The notes under the pieces are model-generated. The model made no database searches. It was not told the origin of the DNA and saw only the letters and a list, made by a program, of their open reading frames with translations. 22,962 nt of DNA from a virus. Made by a program: the position numbers and the translations under genes. The stretch spans positions 1-22,962 of IMG/VR virus record IMGVR_UViG_3300024346_000544. One strand, given 5' to 3'. Shown here in pieces: positions 3,412-20,700 of the stretch. The stretch's first letter is position 1. Each line of letters opens with the position of its first letter.

Positions 3412-4356
3412 TTAGTTTAGCATAATTGATATTGATTTGTCAAACTGGAACTCTAAATTGCTAAGTTCTTCGTCTGGCATATCCCCAATATCCTTATACT
3501 GTGTGTTTAGTTTAATAACGGAAACACGACTAGATAGTTTCTCAACGATTCTGTCTTTCATGTTTCCTCCCGCTTCATCATTATCAGCAATAACAATAAT
3601 GTTATTGAAATACTTCTGAAGCAATTCTATTTGTGTGCTTGATACATTTGCACCAAGTGTTGCTACTGCTGGAAGTCCAACCTGATCAAGCCTGATTGCA
3701 TCAAACGATGATTCCACTACATATACTCTATCAGATTTTTTGACTCTATGCAAGTTAAAAAGAGTTTTACTCTTTGGCAGACCTGGTGTATTCTTAAAAT
3801 CTTTTCCTTCAATAGATCTACCAACAAATCCTAAAGGTATTCCATCTGGACTGTGAACTGGAACAGTAACCATATCTTGCTTTTCTGAGTAGCCCAAAGA
3901 AAACTTTATGCAAGAAGGCTTCTGAATTTTTCTATATGTAAAATAATTCTTTGCTCTTTCTGAAGCAATTAGATTGTTATGAAGCCTTTTAATAATTAAC
4001 TCATCAAAAGTTTTGTATTGCTCTTCTTTAACTAATGCCTTGTCTATTTCTACAGCAAGATTAGTTACTTTTTCTTTGCTCTTAATAAATCTAGCAGACT
4101 CAAAATATGTTCTTCCAGATGTATGCATCACTAACTCTATAAGGTCTGCAGATTTTTGACAAGAAAAGCAAAAGAACATTCCGCTATCTTTTTGTACTTC
4201 TCCTGCTGGGGTTCTGTGATTATTGTGAAATGGACAAAAGATCATAAAGTCTGCATCAAGTTCAGACTCTACCGTTATACCCGATCCTGTAAGGACTCGC
4301 TTGACTTGTTCTGCGGAATAAAGATTGGATTGGTTCCGTCTATTCCTGCTATCCAT
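3412..4356 (-). CDS. dnaG: DnaG-type DNA primase (zinc finger plus TOPRIM)
   Basis: 314 residues; makes RNA primers at the fork. The N-terminal CHC2-type zinc finger has C41-P-F-H44 and C63-F-S-C66. Residues 150 to 205 look like the primase core, with the PDGIPLGFVGRSI and FKNTPGLPKSKTLFNL blocks. The TOPRIM part shows VVESSFDAI (E215) and IADNDEAGG (D258, D260), the acidic metal-binding residues; the usual EG is ES here. The protein ends soon after TOPRIM, so it is shorter than bacterial DnaG (about 600) and lacks the C-terminal helicase-binding domain. It may therefore contact DnaB differently, possibly through one of the small neighbouring proteins. The ATG at 4356 is preceded by AAGGAAG five bases upstream, supporting this start even though it overlaps the upstream gene by 82 bases. 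Confidence 0.93.
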   Translation of the reverse strand: MDSRNRRNQSNLYSAEQVKRVLTGSGITVESELDADFMIFCPFHNNHRTPAGEVQKDSGMFFCFSCQKSADLIELVMHTSGRTYFESARFIKSKEKVTNLAVEIDKALVKEEQYKTFDELIIKRLHNNLIASERAKNYFTYRKIQKPSCIKFSLGYSEKQDMVTVPVHSPDGIPLGFVGRSIEGKDFKNTPGLPKSKTLFNLHRVKKSDRVYVVESSFDAIRLDQVGLPAVATLGANVSSTQIELLQKYFNNIIVIADNDEAGGNMKDRIVEKLSSRVSVIKLNTQYKDIGDMPDEELSNLEFQFDKSISIMLN

Positions 4357-4628
4357 GTGCTCTTCCTTTTCCCTGCGTAGACTGCCTGTACCGATAGTTC
4401 AAATTCAAAAAAGTTCTTTATCTCATTATACCTTATAGTGAAATCTGGGTCAAGATCAATTCTTGGCACATACCCACTAAGTTTCATCTCTGTTGTCAAT
4501 AATCTTATATACTCTTCTTTAAGTCTTCCAATCATTGAGTCGTCATAAATTATGCCATCAAGATAAAACCTTTTAATAGGCTTGTGATGGTAGAAGGTTG
4601 GTGACAAGTTCTTCTTAATTTCTGACAT
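4275..4628 (-). CDS. unknown 117-residue protein between helicase and primase
   Basis: I do not recognise this protein. It fills the gap between dnaB and primase, and its last 82 bases overlap the first 82 of primase in another frame. The sequence is soluble, mixed charge, with aromatic-rich strands (FYHHKPIKRFYLDGIIYDD near residues 12 to 30; NEIKNFFEFELSVQAVYAGKRK near 68 to 90) and no membrane segment. There is no Shine-Dalgarno sequence before the ATG at 4628; the dnaB stop is 12 bases upstream, and a TATAAT hexamer ends five bases before the ATG. Because the primase lacks a helicase-binding tail, a role linking helicase and primase is conceivable, but that is speculation from position only. 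It is probably real, since otherwise a 284-base gap would interrupt a tightly packed gene block. Confidence 0.6.
   Translation of the reverse strand: MSEIKKNLSPTFYHHKPIKRFYLDGIIYDDSMIGRLKEEYIRLLTTEMKLSGYVPRIDLDPDFTIRYNEIKNFFEFELSVQAVYAGKRKSTWIAGIDGTNPIFIPQNKSSESLQDRV
4362..4368 (-). promoter_or_regulatory. ribosome binding site of primase, inside the upstream gene
   Basis: Minus-strand AAGGAAG lies five bases before the primase ATG at 4356. It sits within the coding sequence of the 117-residue upstream gene and supports the long overlapping arrangement. Confidence 0.6.
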
Positions 4629-4633
4629 ACCAT

Positions 4634-4639
4634 ATTATA
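4634..4639 (-). promoter_or_regulatory. possible -10 element (TATAAT) just before the 117-residue gene
   Basis: Perfect minus-strand TATAAT, five bases before the ATG at 4628, a gene that lacks a Shine-Dalgarno sequence. I see no convincing -35. It could be a leaderless promoter inside the replication operon, or chance in AT-rich DNA. Confidence 0.25.
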
Positions 4640-4640
4640 A

Positions 4641-5861
4641 CTACTTATCTTCAAAGTCTTTGTACCTGTAGTATCCCTTATCAAAGTCACACTGTACCAA
4701 AAAGTCTCCCATAAACCCATTACGGTTCTTTCTAAAGGCACACTCAATAATATCGCTGTTCGTACCACGACCTAGTGCAAGCACCCAGTCAGCATCGTAA
4801 GCAATCTGCCTTGACCATGCTGTTTGACCAAGTGTAGGGACTGTAGACAGATCATTAACATCGTCTGGAGTAGCAGATGAGATAGCAATGATAGGAACCT
4901 CTTCGCCAATAGCCATTAGTTTAAGTTCTCTTGAAAGGTTCTTCATTCGTACCGTTTCATTATCTGACTTCTGGTTAGGAGCCATTAACTGCAGGTAGTC
5001 AACGATTACAAAGTCTGGCTTATATTGATCAATCTTTCCACGAAGAACTGATGGGTTGATCTCTCCACCTTGATCGTTTGATATGATATGAAACTCTGGC
5101 TTGCCTGCAAGATTCTTTGCATGCCAATCCTTTAGCATATCAATTTCAATCTCACCATTACTAATCTTGCGGTGGGACCAACGGCCTTCGCCCATGATGG
5201 TAAACACACGATTGCGGACTTCAGTCTCAGACATTTCTAGAGATATTACCATTGGAGACTTACCTTGCTTCCATGCCTGCACTGCAAAGTACAATGCCAG
5301 CCATGACTTACCAATTCCTGGATAGGCAAGGAATACACCAAGTTGTCCTGGCATAATTCCAGATGGAAGGTAGTTGTCAAATCCTGGAAGGCCTGTCTTA
5401 ATTCCTGACAAACCAAGTGCTTGTTGCTTTTTTACATTTTCAAAGTAGGCAATGGCGGACTCTAGATCTGTAACATCAATATCACGAATTGCTGCAGTGT
5501 TCTTCTTTAACTCTGAAGTTTTTGTAATGAGTTCGTTTAGCGCACCAGTTCCATTATTGTTCTGAATCTCGCTTGCTGCAGATCTAATAATATCCTTTAG
5601 ACTATCTGTAAGATATTCTCCCTGAAGTTCTTCAAGGTGGTGCTTAGTTGCTCCAACTCCTGCTACTGGCTCAAAGTCTCTAAACTTTTCAGTAACTAAT
5701 TCTGCTGGAGGAAGTGTTGAGTTGTTTTCAAAGTAAAGTCTGACAAAGTTCCAAATGTCTCCATGCGTTCTTAGAAGGTTGTCAACATTGGCTTGAAGAA
5801 GCACATGGATTTGCTTATCATTTAAGACAGCCGTAAGTAGTTTTGCCTCTGTATTATTCAC
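4641..5861 (-). CDS. dnaB: replicative DNA helicase, DnaB family
   Basis: 406 residues; hexameric RecA-fold helicase that unwinds DNA ahead of the polymerase. Residues 1 to about 110 are a DnaB-like helical N-terminal part. The linker reaches GIKTGLPGFDNYL, then Walker A at 179 to 186 (AYPGIGKS, K185), the SLEMS motif near 207 to 211, Walker B at 283 to 292 (DFVIVDYLQL, D288), and the FRKNRNG arginine-finger and DNA-binding block at 376 to 382. Length is slightly below bacterial DnaB (about 450 to 470). The start is GTG at 5861, chosen because AAGGAG lies seven bases upstream and the frame then overlaps the preceding gene by only eight bases. Its neighbours are primase, SSB-like protein and DnaE, so it is clearly the fork helicase of the phage. 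Confidence 0.95.
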   Translation of the reverse strand: MNNTEAKLLTAVLNDKQIHVLLQANVDNLLRTHGDIWNFVRLYFENNSTLPPAELVTEKFRDFEPVAGVGATKHHLEELQGEYLTDSLKDIIRSAASEIQNNNGTGALNELITKTSELKKNTAAIRDIDVTDLESAIAYFENVKKQQALGLSGIKTGLPGFDNYLPSGIMPGQLGVFLAYPGIGKSWLALYFAVQAWKQGKSPMVISLEMSETEVRNRVFTIMGEGRWSHRKISNGEIEIDMLKDWHAKNLAGKPEFHIISNDQGGEINPSVLRGKIDQYKPDFVIVDYLQLMAPNQKSDNETVRMKNLSRELKLMAIGEEVPIIAISSATPDDVNDLSTVPTLGQTAWSRQIAYDADWVLALGRGTNSDIIECAFRKNRNGFMGDFLVQCDFDKGYYRYKDFEDK

Positions 5862-6162: not shown

Positions 6163-6371
6163 TATCCTTCAGCAGCCTCCGATTGGGCTTCTAAAATCTT
6201 TGCGGTTAGTTTGTCTTCAACAAACTTATAAACACGCTCAAAAGCCTGATCAGTATTTTCTCCATCACGCTTTGAGTCTACAATACCAAGATCAAGTCTT
6301 AGTGACTGAAAGTTTCCTAGGTTGAGTGTGTATCCTAGTGTAACAGATACCTTTGTTGATTCGTTTTCCAT
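6162..6371 (-). CDS. small conserved-looking protein of unknown function, 69 residues
   Basis: The frame is open from 6455, but the better start is the ATG at 6371. GAAGGG stands six bases before it, and the longer version would overlap the upstream gene by 71 bases. The protein begins MENESTKVSVTLGYTLNLGN, with an alternating strand pattern (residues 7 to 31), followed by an acidic and basic helix (AFERVYKFVEDKL) and an Ala/Glu-rich tail. Small proteins of this style (VSVTLG...NLGN...SLRLDLG, then a helix with FERVYKFVE) are, from memory, seen near phage replication genes without known function. It ends TAA, sharing one base with the ATG of the next gene. Confidence 0.75.
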   Translation of the reverse strand: MENESTKVSVTLGYTLNLGNFQSLRLDLGIVDSKRDGENTDQAFERVYKFVEDKLTAKILEAQSEAAEG

Positions 6372-6384: not shown

Positions 6385-6927
6385 TTAAATAGATTCGTTC
6401 CAAATTGGAACAAACCGCCCATCTTCAGTTTTCCTATATGTAAGTATACCATCACCCATTCTGCGTGTCAACTCTTGTTTACTAGGCGTAATATCATTTG
6501 TAATTAATTTATCTTTTCTTGGTCTGCCAATATGATGTGTAGCAAGTATATCACGAATCTCTCTTACTTGCGATTCTGAATAATATGATCTTACCTGAAA
6601 GCCTCTTGCTCCACCCTTCTGAGATCCAGTAGGAAATGGTATAACTCCTCGTCTCATTAAAGATGGCATATATTTTTTGTGACGATTAACTAATTCAGCA
6701 GTCTGACCTACAGTGTATGCTCGTTCTCTTTTATTTTTAAACTCACTAATCAAACAACTTTCAATTTGATCTTTATTTATATTATAGACAGACATAATTC
6801 CGTTAGAATGATTATAGTGGTGAATTCTAACTAGGTCCCCGTTAAGAAACCAAACCTTTTTGTTGCCTGGTATTACAGGCGACTCATTGTATTTTTCGCT
6901 CTCAATTGTTCCTTTTTTAGTAACCAT
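6385..6927 (-). CDS. MerR-like helix-turn-helix DNA-binding protein
   Basis: 180 residues. The central part looks like a MerR/excisionase-type winged helix: YTVGQTAELVNRHKKYMPSL at 71 to 90 (helix-turn-helix with the typical start 'YTVGQTAELV'), MRRGVIPFPTG as the turn into the wing, GGARGFQVRSYYSESQVREI at 105 to 124, then a helix with RDILATHH. It is followed by GRPRKDK (134 to 140), which resembles an AT-hook. The N-terminal 65 residues (FLNGDLVRIHHYN, SVYNINKDQIES) look like a small beta domain of unknown role. AGGAGG stands four bases before the ATG. It sits at the junction of tail and replication modules, so a transcriptional regulator or an origin-binding protein are both reasonable. 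The target is unknown. Confidence 0.7.
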   Translation of the reverse strand: MVTKKGTIESEKYNESPVIPGNKKVWFLNGDLVRIHHYNHSNGIMSVYNINKDQIESCLISEFKNKRERAYTVGQTAELVNRHKKYMPSLMRRGVIPFPTGSQKGGARGFQVRSYYSESQVREIRDILATHHIGRPRKDKLITNDITPSKQELTRRMGDGILTYRKTEDGRFVPIWNESI

Positions 6928-7064
6928 TGGCCCTCCTGAGAATTACTAGGTGGATGAAAAAATTTTCTTGATCCGCAAAGAATGCAATATAATTCCAGAT
7001 TATTTATCTCTGTATATTGTCGATCTACAAACATTCTGCCATTGCATTTTATACACTTAATCAC
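6873..7064 (-). CDS. four-cysteine zinc-ribbon protein, 63 residues
   Basis: Begins with GTG at 7064, overlapping the TGA of the upstream gene as GTGA. Two CxxC pairs, C4-I-K-C7 and C27-I-L-C30, are spaced as in a treble-clef or zinc-ribbon fold (MIKCIKCNGRMFVDRQY ... LYCILCGSRKF). The C-terminal 30 residues are basic and polar with no motif. The last 55 bases overlap the start of the MerR-like gene. Such ribbons act as DNA or protein adaptors; here, next to a DNA-binding protein, a regulatory role is plausible but not shown. The cysteine pattern supports a real gene despite the length. Confidence 0.7.
   Translation of the reverse strand: MIKCIKCNGRMFVDRQYTEINNLELYCILCGSRKFFHPPSNSQEGQWLLKKEQLRAKNTMSRL
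6932..6937 (-). promoter_or_regulatory. ribosome binding site of the MerR-like gene
   Basis: Minus-strand AGGAGG, four bases before the ATG at 6927, embedded in the 3' part of the zinc-ribbon gene. Confidence 0.65.
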
Positions 7065-7507
7065 TGGTTTGGTAATCCAACTGCTATAATGTTGATACCC
7101 ATCGTGGTTTCTCCTCCAAGATTAAACTTTACTGTTCCTTCAACTTTGGATGGTGTTATGCTATTAATAGTTACTGTAACATCTTTGCCAGCATCGCTAT
7201 TTCCTTTGTTGTATGCTGTTGCAGTAACAATTGGCTCAAATGCAAACTCTTGTGGGAAACTATAACTCCAAGGCAATGAACTTCCTGCTGTCTGCAAAGA
7301 TGTTGTAGACACCTGCTCAAAACCTCCAATTATAAGAGACTCTGATGCCTTTACGGTTTGTGGGCCATTTTTATTTGTTGTGACCTTAAGGTATCCTTTT
7401 TTGGATACATCAACCTGGCTATACAACTCATTAATAGACTGAACAATTTTATATATATATGTTGTATCTAGTGGCTGGCCACGCTCAGGGATAGGAATAA
7501 TAGGCAT
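7061..7507 (-). CDS. probable minor tail or adhesin protein, 148 residues
   Basis: Begins MPIIPIPERGQPLDTTYIYKI, with a helix at residues 14 to 32 (DTTYIYKIVQSINELYSQV) that may trimerise. The C-terminal part (about 75 to 148) is beta-rich: SYSFPQEFAFEPIVTATAYN, then KDVTVTINSITPSKVEGTVKF, ending GINIIAVGLPNQ. This layout is like the H-type-lectin and receptor-binding tips of tail fibre proteins ('F...F...P.V...'). No Shine-Dalgarno sequence precedes the ATG, but an extended -10 element lies six bases upstream, so it may be translated from a leaderless message. Position at the end of the tail block supports a virion role; the exact function is unknown. Confidence 0.65.
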   Translation of the reverse strand: MPIIPIPERGQPLDTTYIYKIVQSINELYSQVDVSKKGYLKVTTNKNGPQTVKASESLIIGGFEQVSTTSLQTAGSSLPWSYSFPQEFAFEPIVTATAYNKGNSDAGKDVTVTINSITPSKVEGTVKFNLGGETTMGINIIAVGLPNQ

Positions 7508-7513
7508 ACTACA

Positions 7514-7522
7514 ATTATACCA
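7514..7522 (-). promoter_or_regulatory. extended -10 promoter element placed for a leaderless transcript
   Basis: Minus strand reads TGGTATAAT (TGnTATAAT) at 7522 to 7514, then exactly six bases, then the ATG at 7507. Initiation at the usual distance would start the RNA on the A of ATG. The gene has no Shine-Dalgarno sequence. A -35 at 17 bases (TGTTTC) is weak, as is common for extended -10 promoters. The element overlaps the stop codon of the upstream tail gene. Confidence 0.45.
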
Positions 7523-7943
7523 GACTAACTATTCCAGAAACATATACCTTCAGGGCATCTGTTAATTTTGGGTTTAATGAAGAGGCTTGGACTACAACGC
7601 TAACAGATTGTGTACCGTTTTTTAAAAAAGAATAATTTTGTGATGATGTTGAGCCTACATAGACTGGTGTTGCTCCATCAAACCCTGCAAAAATGTCGTA
7701 CACCATCTGAGTTGAGGCCTGACCAATTGACCAGTTTACAATAACAGTATTACCAATAAAGTTTACATCTCCTGGGCCAGGGAACAAAATTTCTGATCCA
7801 GTAATGAATATCTTAGAGTATGCAGACTTTCTATTTTTATCTTCTGATATAAGTCTAAATCTGACTACTCTTGAGTTTGAAGATGTTACCTTCCCAAGTA
7901 AATCCTTTTTAATAACAATATTCTTAATTCCTTTATCGACCAT
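7515..7943 (-). CDS. small beta-sandwich (FN3-like) tail protein, 142 residues
   Basis: The first 30 residues are basic (IKNIVIKKDLLGKV) and would attach it to the tail. Residues 25 to 142 alternate strands and loops as in an immunoglobulin or fibronectin type III fold: VVRFRLISEDKNRKSAYSK, then NTVIVNWSIGQ with the characteristic core tryptophan, VYDIFAGFDG, and TQSVSVVVQASS. Such domains are common ornaments of siphovirus tail tips, where they bind surfaces weakly. The ATG is two bases after the stop of the upstream gene and has no strong ribosome binding site, implying coupling. FN3-like fold by eye; function unknown. Confidence 0.65.
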   Translation of the reverse strand: MVDKGIKNIVIKKDLLGKVTSSNSRVVRFRLISEDKNRKSAYSKIFITGSEILFPGPGDVNFIGNTVIVNWSIGQASTQMVYDIFAGFDGATPVYVGSTSSQNYSFLKNGTQSVSVVVQASSLNPKLTDALKVYVSGIVSLV

Positions 7944-17700: not shown

Positions 17701-20700
17701 GGAATTGCAGCACCTAGTTGAGAAATTCTTTGGAATAGTTCAAGTTGTTTTGCTGCTTCGGCAGAACTCTTTACAGATATATCAGCAACAAACTTTGTGG
17801 CCTGCTTAGGATCTTTAAACATACCAACAATTCCCATCATCTGGTTTGCAAACTTTCCTCCAAACTTTCCTACAATAGAAACAACCTTTTCAATTGAGGC
17901 CTTGTCTTTACCAAATGTTTCAAATATTTCAATCATTTGCATTGGGTCAATAGCACCACTAGCCATTTCCATTTTTAATGTATACTTAAGTTCATCTGCC
18001 ACTCCAGAATCATTAATCTGCTGCTGTGCCAAAGGAACAACATCTTCTAAAGCAGTACCCTTATATTGCTTTGTAACAGCCTTATCTGCTCCAGTCATTA
18101 ATGCTTTTCTTGTTGCACCTTCTGAATTTTTATAACTATTCTGAATATCTGTTACAAGTTTTCCATTTTGCTCAAGAAGTCTAATTCTGTCCTTAACAAA
18201 AGTGTTTGTCAGTTCTTCTGCTTTTGCCTGATCTCCTGTTGCTTGAGCAGTTGCAAGTTTTGTCTGATACTCTAACTCTACAGAGTCCATCATTTCTTGT
18301 TGTTGCTGCAAAGCAATCTTTTGCATAGCAACACTTGCGCCCGATGCAGTTCCTATTCTTTTGTTTCTTTCTGCTCTTCCTATGAAATTTCCTGCAACAG
18401 TTCCAATAGTTGCTCCTATTTTTGCTCCAAGTATTGCTCCTGCTGCTGCACCTGGTGGGCCACCAATGGCTCCTAGTAATCCTCCAGCAATTGCTCCTCC
18501 AACTGCTCCTGCTGCTGCACCTACACCCATGCCTGCTGCAGTCTGTCCTAAATCTTTACCAGTCCATCCGCCAGCCTTTCTTGCTGCATCTGAAGAAAGA
18601 TTCATCTTGGTTCTAGTCTCTTCTAATATTTTTACTCTAATACCTATTGGATCTTTGAGAATGTTTTCTCCATTTGGCCCAAGCAATTGATTTAGTTTTC
18701 CATTTACTTCAATTCCAAAACTGTAATCTCCCAACTCTTGTCCAAGATTAGAAACAATGCTTCTTGCTTGTGCTGGACTTAGAGCACCCGTAGCAACTGC
18801 TGTTGCCATTTGATTTGCAACTTGGTCTTTTGCTACAGCCTTACCACTTGTCTTAACTGTTTGTCCAACATTCTTTGCCATCTCTTTGCCCTGCTCGCCA
18901 GCCATAAATGACTGACCAAAAGTTGTTTTTCCTGTTTTAATCTGGAATGGAGAGAAAGAATCTTTTCTTCGTCTGTCCATGATTTCTCCAGCAGAAACCT
19001 TTCCTGCAAATGTAGAAAGATTCTTCATTGCTGTAGTTCCAGATCCCATCGCATCTGCAAGTTCTAGTGCTGCATCTTGTGCTTTGTCAAATGCCATTCT
19101 CTGGTAAGCATATGCTGCTACTGCCAAACCAACGCCTACTGCAAGGGCTGAGAACTTACTCTGAAGCATTGGAAGTATCATAGAAATACCCATAAGTGGC
19201 ATCATTATTTTTGTTGCCATTTCTCCAACTTGCCCAGGAATCATAGAAGCCATCATTGCTACACCTGAAGCAGCCATTGCTCCACCAGCAAGACCTCCAC
19301 TAGTTACTCTTCTTGGAATCTTATTTCCGTCTGCATCATACTTTGGTCCAAATTTTGTTGTAGCATATTGCTTCATTCTTCCAGCAACAGTTTGCTTTCT
19401 TGCTGACTCTGCAGCACCAGCAGAAATTACTGATCCTGGCATGCCAACTCTGCCTTCTAAGCGACTTCTCTTTTCAGCGTTGCGTCTCTTGGATTTTGCA
19501 ACAGCATCGATTGTGCTATCGCCATATAACGCTTTTCTAGATGCTGCTGCTTTTGCTTGTGTCTTTGCTTCTATTCTTTGTCTTTTTTCTATTTGCCTTC
19601 TTACAGATTTAGCGTCAGCATCTATTGGTCCCGTGCCATATAGAGCATTTCTTGATGCAAGTGCTGCTGACTGAGATATTGTTTTTCCAATTAATTCGCC
19701 TACAGTTTTTGCTTTAGCAACAGAACCCTTTGCTCCATCAACTACTGCTGTAGAAGTTCTACCAACTCCGCTACCTGCTTCTGGAGCATCTGCGTGTCCA
19801 GTAACAACCATTCTACCTCTAGGACCTTGAACAACTCTTGTTCCACTCTTAGGCTTGTCTGTAATTCTAGTATCTTTTGGACTTCCAGAAGAAGACTTAA
19901 CTCCTCTAGGCTTTGGTTTGGTCTTTGGCTTAGTTAATTTTCCAGTTTTTTCATCTTCAATTACTTCATCTGGCTTTACTAAAATAGAAGAATGCTTTGC
20001 GTGAAGGGCTCTCCAGTCAACCTTCTTGCCTTCTTCTAGTCTGTCTATCATTGCCTGATAAACCTTTTGATCCTCTGGCCCTAGACCAAAACTCTTTATT
20101 GTTTCTTTTAACTTTGGAAGAACTCTATCAATTTCTTCAATCATTGACTTATGGTATTGATCTGCAGTCATGCTCTTTGCAATATCTGCAGTAGCATTAC
20201 CAAACCAGAATGGTGAGTTTCCAGCAGCAGCGCCCTTGACACCACTTAAATTCTTTTCTGCCATCTCCAACATTGATGGTAGTTTAGATGCATACTCTCT
20301 TGCACCAGAGGCTCTATCAAATACGCCAGCAGTTCCAACATCTGCAAGGATGTTTCCGCCTAGATTTCCTTTTTTAAGATCCTTATCTGCACGAAGATTT
20401 GCTGCAACTAGTTGCTTAAAGTATTGCTCTTTAGAGAAAGTCTTAGCCATTTGGTTTGGATCAAATCTTGAATCAAATGCAGACTCAAGAGCATACATTG
20501 TCTTACCAGTAAAAGGGTCCTTAATTATTCTTAATTCTTGTCTTGGAGCGTCAAGGCCATGAACATCTCTTGCGATCTGTGTTGCTCTTTGTTCTGCAAT
20601 TGCTGACTTTAAGTCAACCATTGGCTTAACATAAACCTTCTTTCCATCTAGAGTTTCAAACACTCCAGAGGCATCACGAGCAGCAACATTGCTGTATCCA

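Follow-up and report, generated by a model that had tools for sequence, protein, structure and literature searches.

Can a gene at the end of a phage tail cluster be served by a promoter so close to its ATG that the messenger has no leader? The question is raised by a site in IMG/VR record IMGVR_UViG_3300024346_000544, of which positions 1 to 22,962 (22,962 nt) make up the window, the whole stretch of DNA analysed here. On the minus strand the site reads TAGTCTGGTATAATTGTAGT, then ATG: TG (7522-7521) and G (7520), together the extended -10 motif TGG (7520..7522); the -10 hexamer TATAAT (7519-7514), which occupies -12 to -7 relative to the ATG; a six-base spacer, TGTAGT (7513-7508); and the start codon ATG (7507-7505), whose A at 7507 is the predicted +1, judging from the spacing. 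A sequence-only reading of this DNA had described a TG-extended -10 element, exactly six bases and the ATG of a gene that lacks a Shine-Dalgarno (SD) sequence. Both points hold, with the coordinates confirmed on the minus strand: GGAG, GAGG, AGGA, AAGG, GGGG and GAGA are all absent from the 20 bases before the ATG. Furthermore, the best -35 match at spacers of 15-19 bases is 2/6, and the site is missing from the window's list of two-hexamer (-35/-10) sequences.

The TAA within TATAAT (7517-7515) doubles as the stop codon of the upstream gene (7515..7943, minus strand), which ends CTG GTA TAA. The element thus overlaps coding sequence, and the intergenic gap between this gene and the ATG at 7507 is 7 bases. 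Because of the overlap, an origin through coding or chance was the first thing to test. The window has a single match to TGNTATAATN6ATG, where shuffled sequence has 0.03 on average (100 shuffles, 3 of them with one match).

Conservation of the element in relatives

A search of IMG/VR with the downstream protein returned 8 loci, and a further search with its alignment returned 80. The junction table took in 79 of these 80 (L087, whose match starts at residue 92, was omitted); L079 was too short, and the result was 71 loci at six bases plus 7 distant ones. Motif and spacing are unchanged in 71/71 loci, down to 53% protein identity. Together with the window and one further record, the 71 loci give 73 rows and 33 distinct 90-base contexts. 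Neither TCTGGTATAATT (bases -17 to -6) nor the ATG varies among the 33, while an ungapped comparison of bases -60 to -18 gives pairwise identities that average 0.61 and fall as low as 0.14. The sequence-only reading had pointed to relatives as the place to check the element and its spacing, and these relatives agree in both.

The upstream stop lies at the same position in 32 of the 33 contexts; L044, whose longest upstream ORF ends as early as -21, still has the complete element. Among the distant relatives (L080-L086, about 41% protein identity), TGGTATAAT is kept in all seven that are readable. Their gap to the ATG, where we took as start codon the ATG directly before the aligned part, is 9 bases in six loci and 14 in L080, which carries AGGAG in the gap; on this reading of their sequences, the site is not strictly leaderless there.

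Codons were compared in 31 rows (the window and 30 loci, giving 30 different gene sequences after exclusion of loci with indels and of many duplicates). In the downstream gene, 1/26 fourfold-degenerate third positions is invariant, whereas the element's codons CTG, GTA and TAA are the same in 31/31 rows. Hence, the constraint is on DNA or RNA and not on protein alone. Given this contrast, and given that the stop is shifted in L044, coding constraint was rejected as the origin of the element.

Recurrence of the motif and the type of promoter

In a first count covering two related records and the window, 19 of 58 occurrences of TGNTATAAT had an ATG 5-7 bases on, an ATG being counted if it starts an ORF of at least 40 codons. 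Over five related records and the window, the count is 46/126, with 38 at exactly six bases, and each of the 19 other hexamer permutations reaches at most 1 at six bases and 2 at 5-7; the 46 sites include related copies, since the five records are akin, and hence are not independent. The window itself contributes one of its three occurrences, namely the 7507 site. TGNTATAAT is commoner than its reversed control in 6/6 records, and strict motif sites number 10-17 in each of the five. The spacings have secondary peaks at 18 and at 25-26 bases, where some of the genes behind this -10 are SD-led.

The architecture is kept for orthologues of the 7507 gene in the five records and the window, and for a gene of 225-226 aa with TGGTATACT in 5/5 records. 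A MAFPATYDF gene and a MAKISI/MAKVSI gene have the leaderless architecture in 4 records each, and an SSSNYP-type gene has a 7-base site in 4; further orthologous groups likewise keep the architecture, and 42 further sites were found in one record only. Before the 226-aa gene, a UUCG hairpin (-21.3 to -24.5 kcal/mol) with a T-rich run abuts TGGTATACT-N6-ATG in 5/5 records. This terminator-like hairpin and its TGGTATACT partner lie at about 4735-4795 in G002 (L156), with orthologues in G001, G003, G004 and G005, an arrangement that is as expected if transcription ended and then restarted there.

Ten products of one record were compared with PHROGs. Among the nine encoded behind spacings of 6-7 bases, one gave a weak tail match, five matched only families of unknown function and three had no match; the tenth, behind an 18-base spacing, gave a weak tail-fibre match. 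Pfam returned no family above its cut-off for nine products, and the structure of another leaderless gene product (138 aa), modelled with no alignment, was too poor for use (mean pLDDT 44). The leaderless class is weakly linked to virion genes.

Extended -10 promoters function without a -35 in many bacteria. Across 51 non-redundant strict sites, the best -35 match stays near the background level, 5/6 matches being slightly commoner (6% versus 2%). Single-column base counts at 39 sites with a spacing of six reveal no position with strong bias further upstream than -16, where counts of this kind would miss a gapped box. When leaderless TATA[AC]T sites with 6-7 bases are sorted, 59 have the TG only, 9 a good -35 only, 3 both and 22 neither. 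The sites with a good -35 and no TG form a second leaderless class in G001-G005, all nine of them before ORFs shorter than 100 aa, as against 10/59 such ORFs behind the TG-only sites. The split between TG-only and -35-only sites, and the accompanying split in ORF size, suggest a broader reading, speculative and rather unlikely as a whole: there may be two leaderless promoter classes, -35/-10 before very small genes and TG-extended, -35-less before larger ones, fibre-like genes included, with some start signals inside a neighbouring gene's end; the second class would be a late regulon whose modules could be exchanged as blocks that include promoter and start codon, with leaderless translation in infection.

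Sigma-70 region 2 (PF04542) was found in 0/5 related records, which would make the host sigma factor the simplest reader of these sites; the records are possibly incomplete, and a phage sigma factor outside them or too diverged for PF04542 would be missed.

Gene neighbourhood and phage group

The first gene of the predicted unit (7061..7507, minus strand) encodes a 148-aa protein that is tail-fibre-like and has an H-type-lectin fold according to AlphaFold2 and fold comparison. The model (mean pLDDT 77) matches the R1 pyocin fibre (6cxb, C-terminal part; Z 10.5, 85 residues, rmsd 1.8) and Helix pomatia agglutinin (2ccv; Z 9.4), and the H-type-lectin fold is also named among the viral structure matches of this product. 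The protein has no PHROGs or Pfam family match, and tblastn gave no match to relatives in named phages. Given the fibre and lectin fold matches, the predicted unit probably opens with an adsorption protein, and not with a regulator.

The next gene (6873..7064, minus strand) overlaps the fibre-like gene by 4 bases and belongs to phrog_12850 (function unknown), with sub-threshold zinc-ribbon similarity. It is followed by a gene with an SD-like AGGAGGG (6385..6927, minus strand; phrog_9440, function unknown) and sub-threshold similarity to HTH_17. The earlier placement of the site at the boundary between tail and replication genes is therefore half right: the first gene is fibre-like, the two genes with zinc-ribbon and HTH similarity come after it, and the replication genes have a separate promoter-like sequence about 1 kb further on.

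That sequence, TTGACA-17-TATACT with TGG before the second hexamer (6443..6471, minus strand), lies inside the gene 6927..6385 and before the gene at 6371. Both hexamers and their spacing are identical in 52/52 distinct contexts, which come from the 78 of 81 rows that were long enough, drawn from the best 80 of 594 relatives. The evidence is weaker than for the main site, because the proteins compared are 91-100% identical. In the most distant relatives the first hexamer is TTGACG (G005) or TTGACT (L081, L083 and L086), and one group of five rows (L105) has other sequence after the promoter. TTGACA-17-TATACT precedes the helicase and primase genes and is perhaps the start of a replication unit. 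In G004, two gene ends with TTGACA/TATACT stand about 800 bases apart (19796-20608, minus strand), as if the gene of the 6927..6385 type had been duplicated there.

Another site lies right after the helicase stop (4629-4639, minus strand): TATAAT, five bases and the SD-less ATG of gene 4628..4275. Its TAGTTATAATATGRTATG is shared by the window, G001-G004, L011 and L019; G005, L081, L083 and L086 lack it, as do L015 and L078, which may end before the site. It is a candidate for a second leaderless site, this one without TG. The helicase itself (4641-5861, minus strand) shares 98-99.5% identity with its counterparts in G001, G002 and G003, whereas their versions of the fibre-like gene (7061-7507) reach only 52-62%, a contrast suggesting that the fibre region has been exchanged.

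Against Streptomyces phage Evy the helicase has 39.5% identity, and against Comrade a 549-base stretch of DnaE DNA has 70.8%. PHROGs matches in the window comprise tape measure, minor tail, helicase, primase and SSB proteins, and the Stanwilliamsviridae (Comrade and Evy, both Streptomyces phages) share the order tape measure, minor tail, helicase, primase, SSB, DnaE. Judged from gene order and sequence identity, the window belongs to a phage group allied to the Stanwilliamsviridae; this is a statement of relatedness, family rank apart. Streptomyces is the host of the named phages that come closest in helicase and DnaE, and WhiB, described as exclusive to Actinobacteriota (PMC10202952), is found in 3/5 related records. 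Both observations support an actinobacterial setting, and the phage probably infects an actinobacterium. A search of genome contigs with two phage proteins found no relatives that would name a host.

Comrade differs from the window's group in having no TG-extended leaderless class in the 100 of 129 kb that were scanned: 0/4 occurrences of TGNTATAAT have ATG or GTG at 5-7 bases, and for TATAAT alone the count is 3/40, within the range of scrambled hexamers. Within its first 50 kb, Comrade (L185) has TTGACT-17-TATAAT-N7-ATG before tail-region gene 42 (34484-34522), a candidate leaderless site in the nearest named family.

Preferred reading, alternatives and significance

Because it is conserved in relatives and recurs at the same spacing in related records, TGGTATAAT at 7522-7514 is very probably a -35-less extended -10 promoter, from which we infer the following course of events. 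The host's housekeeping RNA polymerase, with its own sigma factor, would read the element without a -35; RNA would begin at the A of the ATG at 7507, giving a leaderless mRNA of the tail-fibre-like gene; and translation would proceed from the 5'-terminal AUG. The promoter, built into the upstream gene's end and stop, would thereby begin a fresh transcript where the tail cluster ends, and would belong to a set of leaderless promoters, most of them -35-less, that are predicted for this phage group. A separate transcription unit with a leaderless mRNA had been proposed before; its promoter is now predicted with strong support from conservation and from recurrence at the same spacing, and its RNA start is placed by inference.

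Other origins for the element have to be weighed against this reading. An AT-rich genome in which a TAA stop follows GTA will yield an occasional TATAAT, and the hexamer does overlap GTA-TAA-T of the upstream gene; but with 0.03 matches expected per window, 33/33 contexts identical and scrambled hexamers reaching at most 2 each, chance is negligibly probable and was rejected. It is also very unlikely that the conserved stretch is no promoter and acts as an A/U-rich signal at the RNA level, for termination and reinitiation between two genes of one operon. The 7-base gap, the SD-less ATG and the fixed stop in 32/33 contexts would suit such a signal, and the gene could also be translated from a read-through mRNA by ribosomes that reinitiate after the stop 7 bases upstream. 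Nevertheless, TGGTATAAT is kept in L044, where the stop is at -21, and in L080-L086, where the gaps are different; the motif turns up again ahead of other genes, in one case directly past the terminator-like hairpin; the neighbouring SD-less starts at 7943 and 7064 have no TATAAT-like block in relatives; and TG before TATAAT is a promoter feature.

Two further alternatives accept a promoter. RNA might start 1-3 bases away or further, so that translation would not be strictly leaderless, and we consider this decidedly unlikely. Start-site choice in bacteria does vary by a few bases, 13/64 strict sites have 7 bases to the ATG, and the distant relatives have 9 or 14. However, 38 of the 46 sites in the 5-7 range stand at exactly six, which would place +1 on the A, and since there is no SD at 7507, a longer leader would have no ribosome site. 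Alternatively, a polymerase modified by the phage for late or middle regulation might be at work, with a phage activator replacing the -35, as in T4, at whose middle promoters a phage activator makes up for the missing -35. The rarity of TG and a good -35 together (3 sites), and the small ORFs behind all of the -35-only sites but few of the TG-only ones, as if each of two gene classes had its own promoter type, speak for it; the lack of a strongly biased column upstream of -16, which a gapped box would escape, and the ability of extended -10 elements to work without a -35 make it unlikely.

The preferred reading, a leaderless extended -10 promoter, has counterparts in well-described systems. 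Sequence-based classification puts over twenty percent of actinobacterial genes in the leaderless category (PMC3160421). Among M. smegmatis transcripts, 24% have no leader when leaders of up to 5 bases are counted as none, and a -10 of the form ANNNT occupies positions -13 to -6 relative to start sites (PMC6448022); in mycobacteria, a 5'-end ATG or GTG is reported to be necessary and sufficient for leaderless translation (PMC4633059). As portrayed in these three sources, the TA-led genes of Actinobacteria share with our site a -10-like signal about 10 bases 5' of the ATG, no SD and a start codon at the predicted RNA 5' end. They differ from the sites here, which are in phage records, have the consensus TATAAT with the TG extension and are predicted from sequence. 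Corndog and other cluster O mycobacteriophages are described as having eight or nine SigA-like promoters per genome, of which three, PL1, PR2 and PL2, are predicted to be leaderless, and PL6 lies inside coding sequence (PMC4351075). Cluster O thus resembles the present case both in its predicted leaderless promoters and in a promoter within coding sequence (PMC4351075), while the five records here hold 10-17 strict sites each, mostly TG-extended and -35-less, with the one at 7507 kept in 71/71 closer loci. In the literature that we searched, which leaves most subscription journals outside, no account of the motif in these phages was found. Leaderless genes and predicted leaderless actinophage promoters were already known, and the addition of a new set is well supported.

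Taken together, these results provide a sequence rule, TGNTATAAT followed by six bases and ATG, for locating likely promoters and transcript starts, and for picking the right start codons, in an uncultured phage group present in many IMG/VR contigs. They also point to a natural set of -35-less leaderless promoters, the one at 7507 being embedded in coding sequence, that would be useful for asking how actinobacterial polymerase and ribosomes handle such starts in infection.
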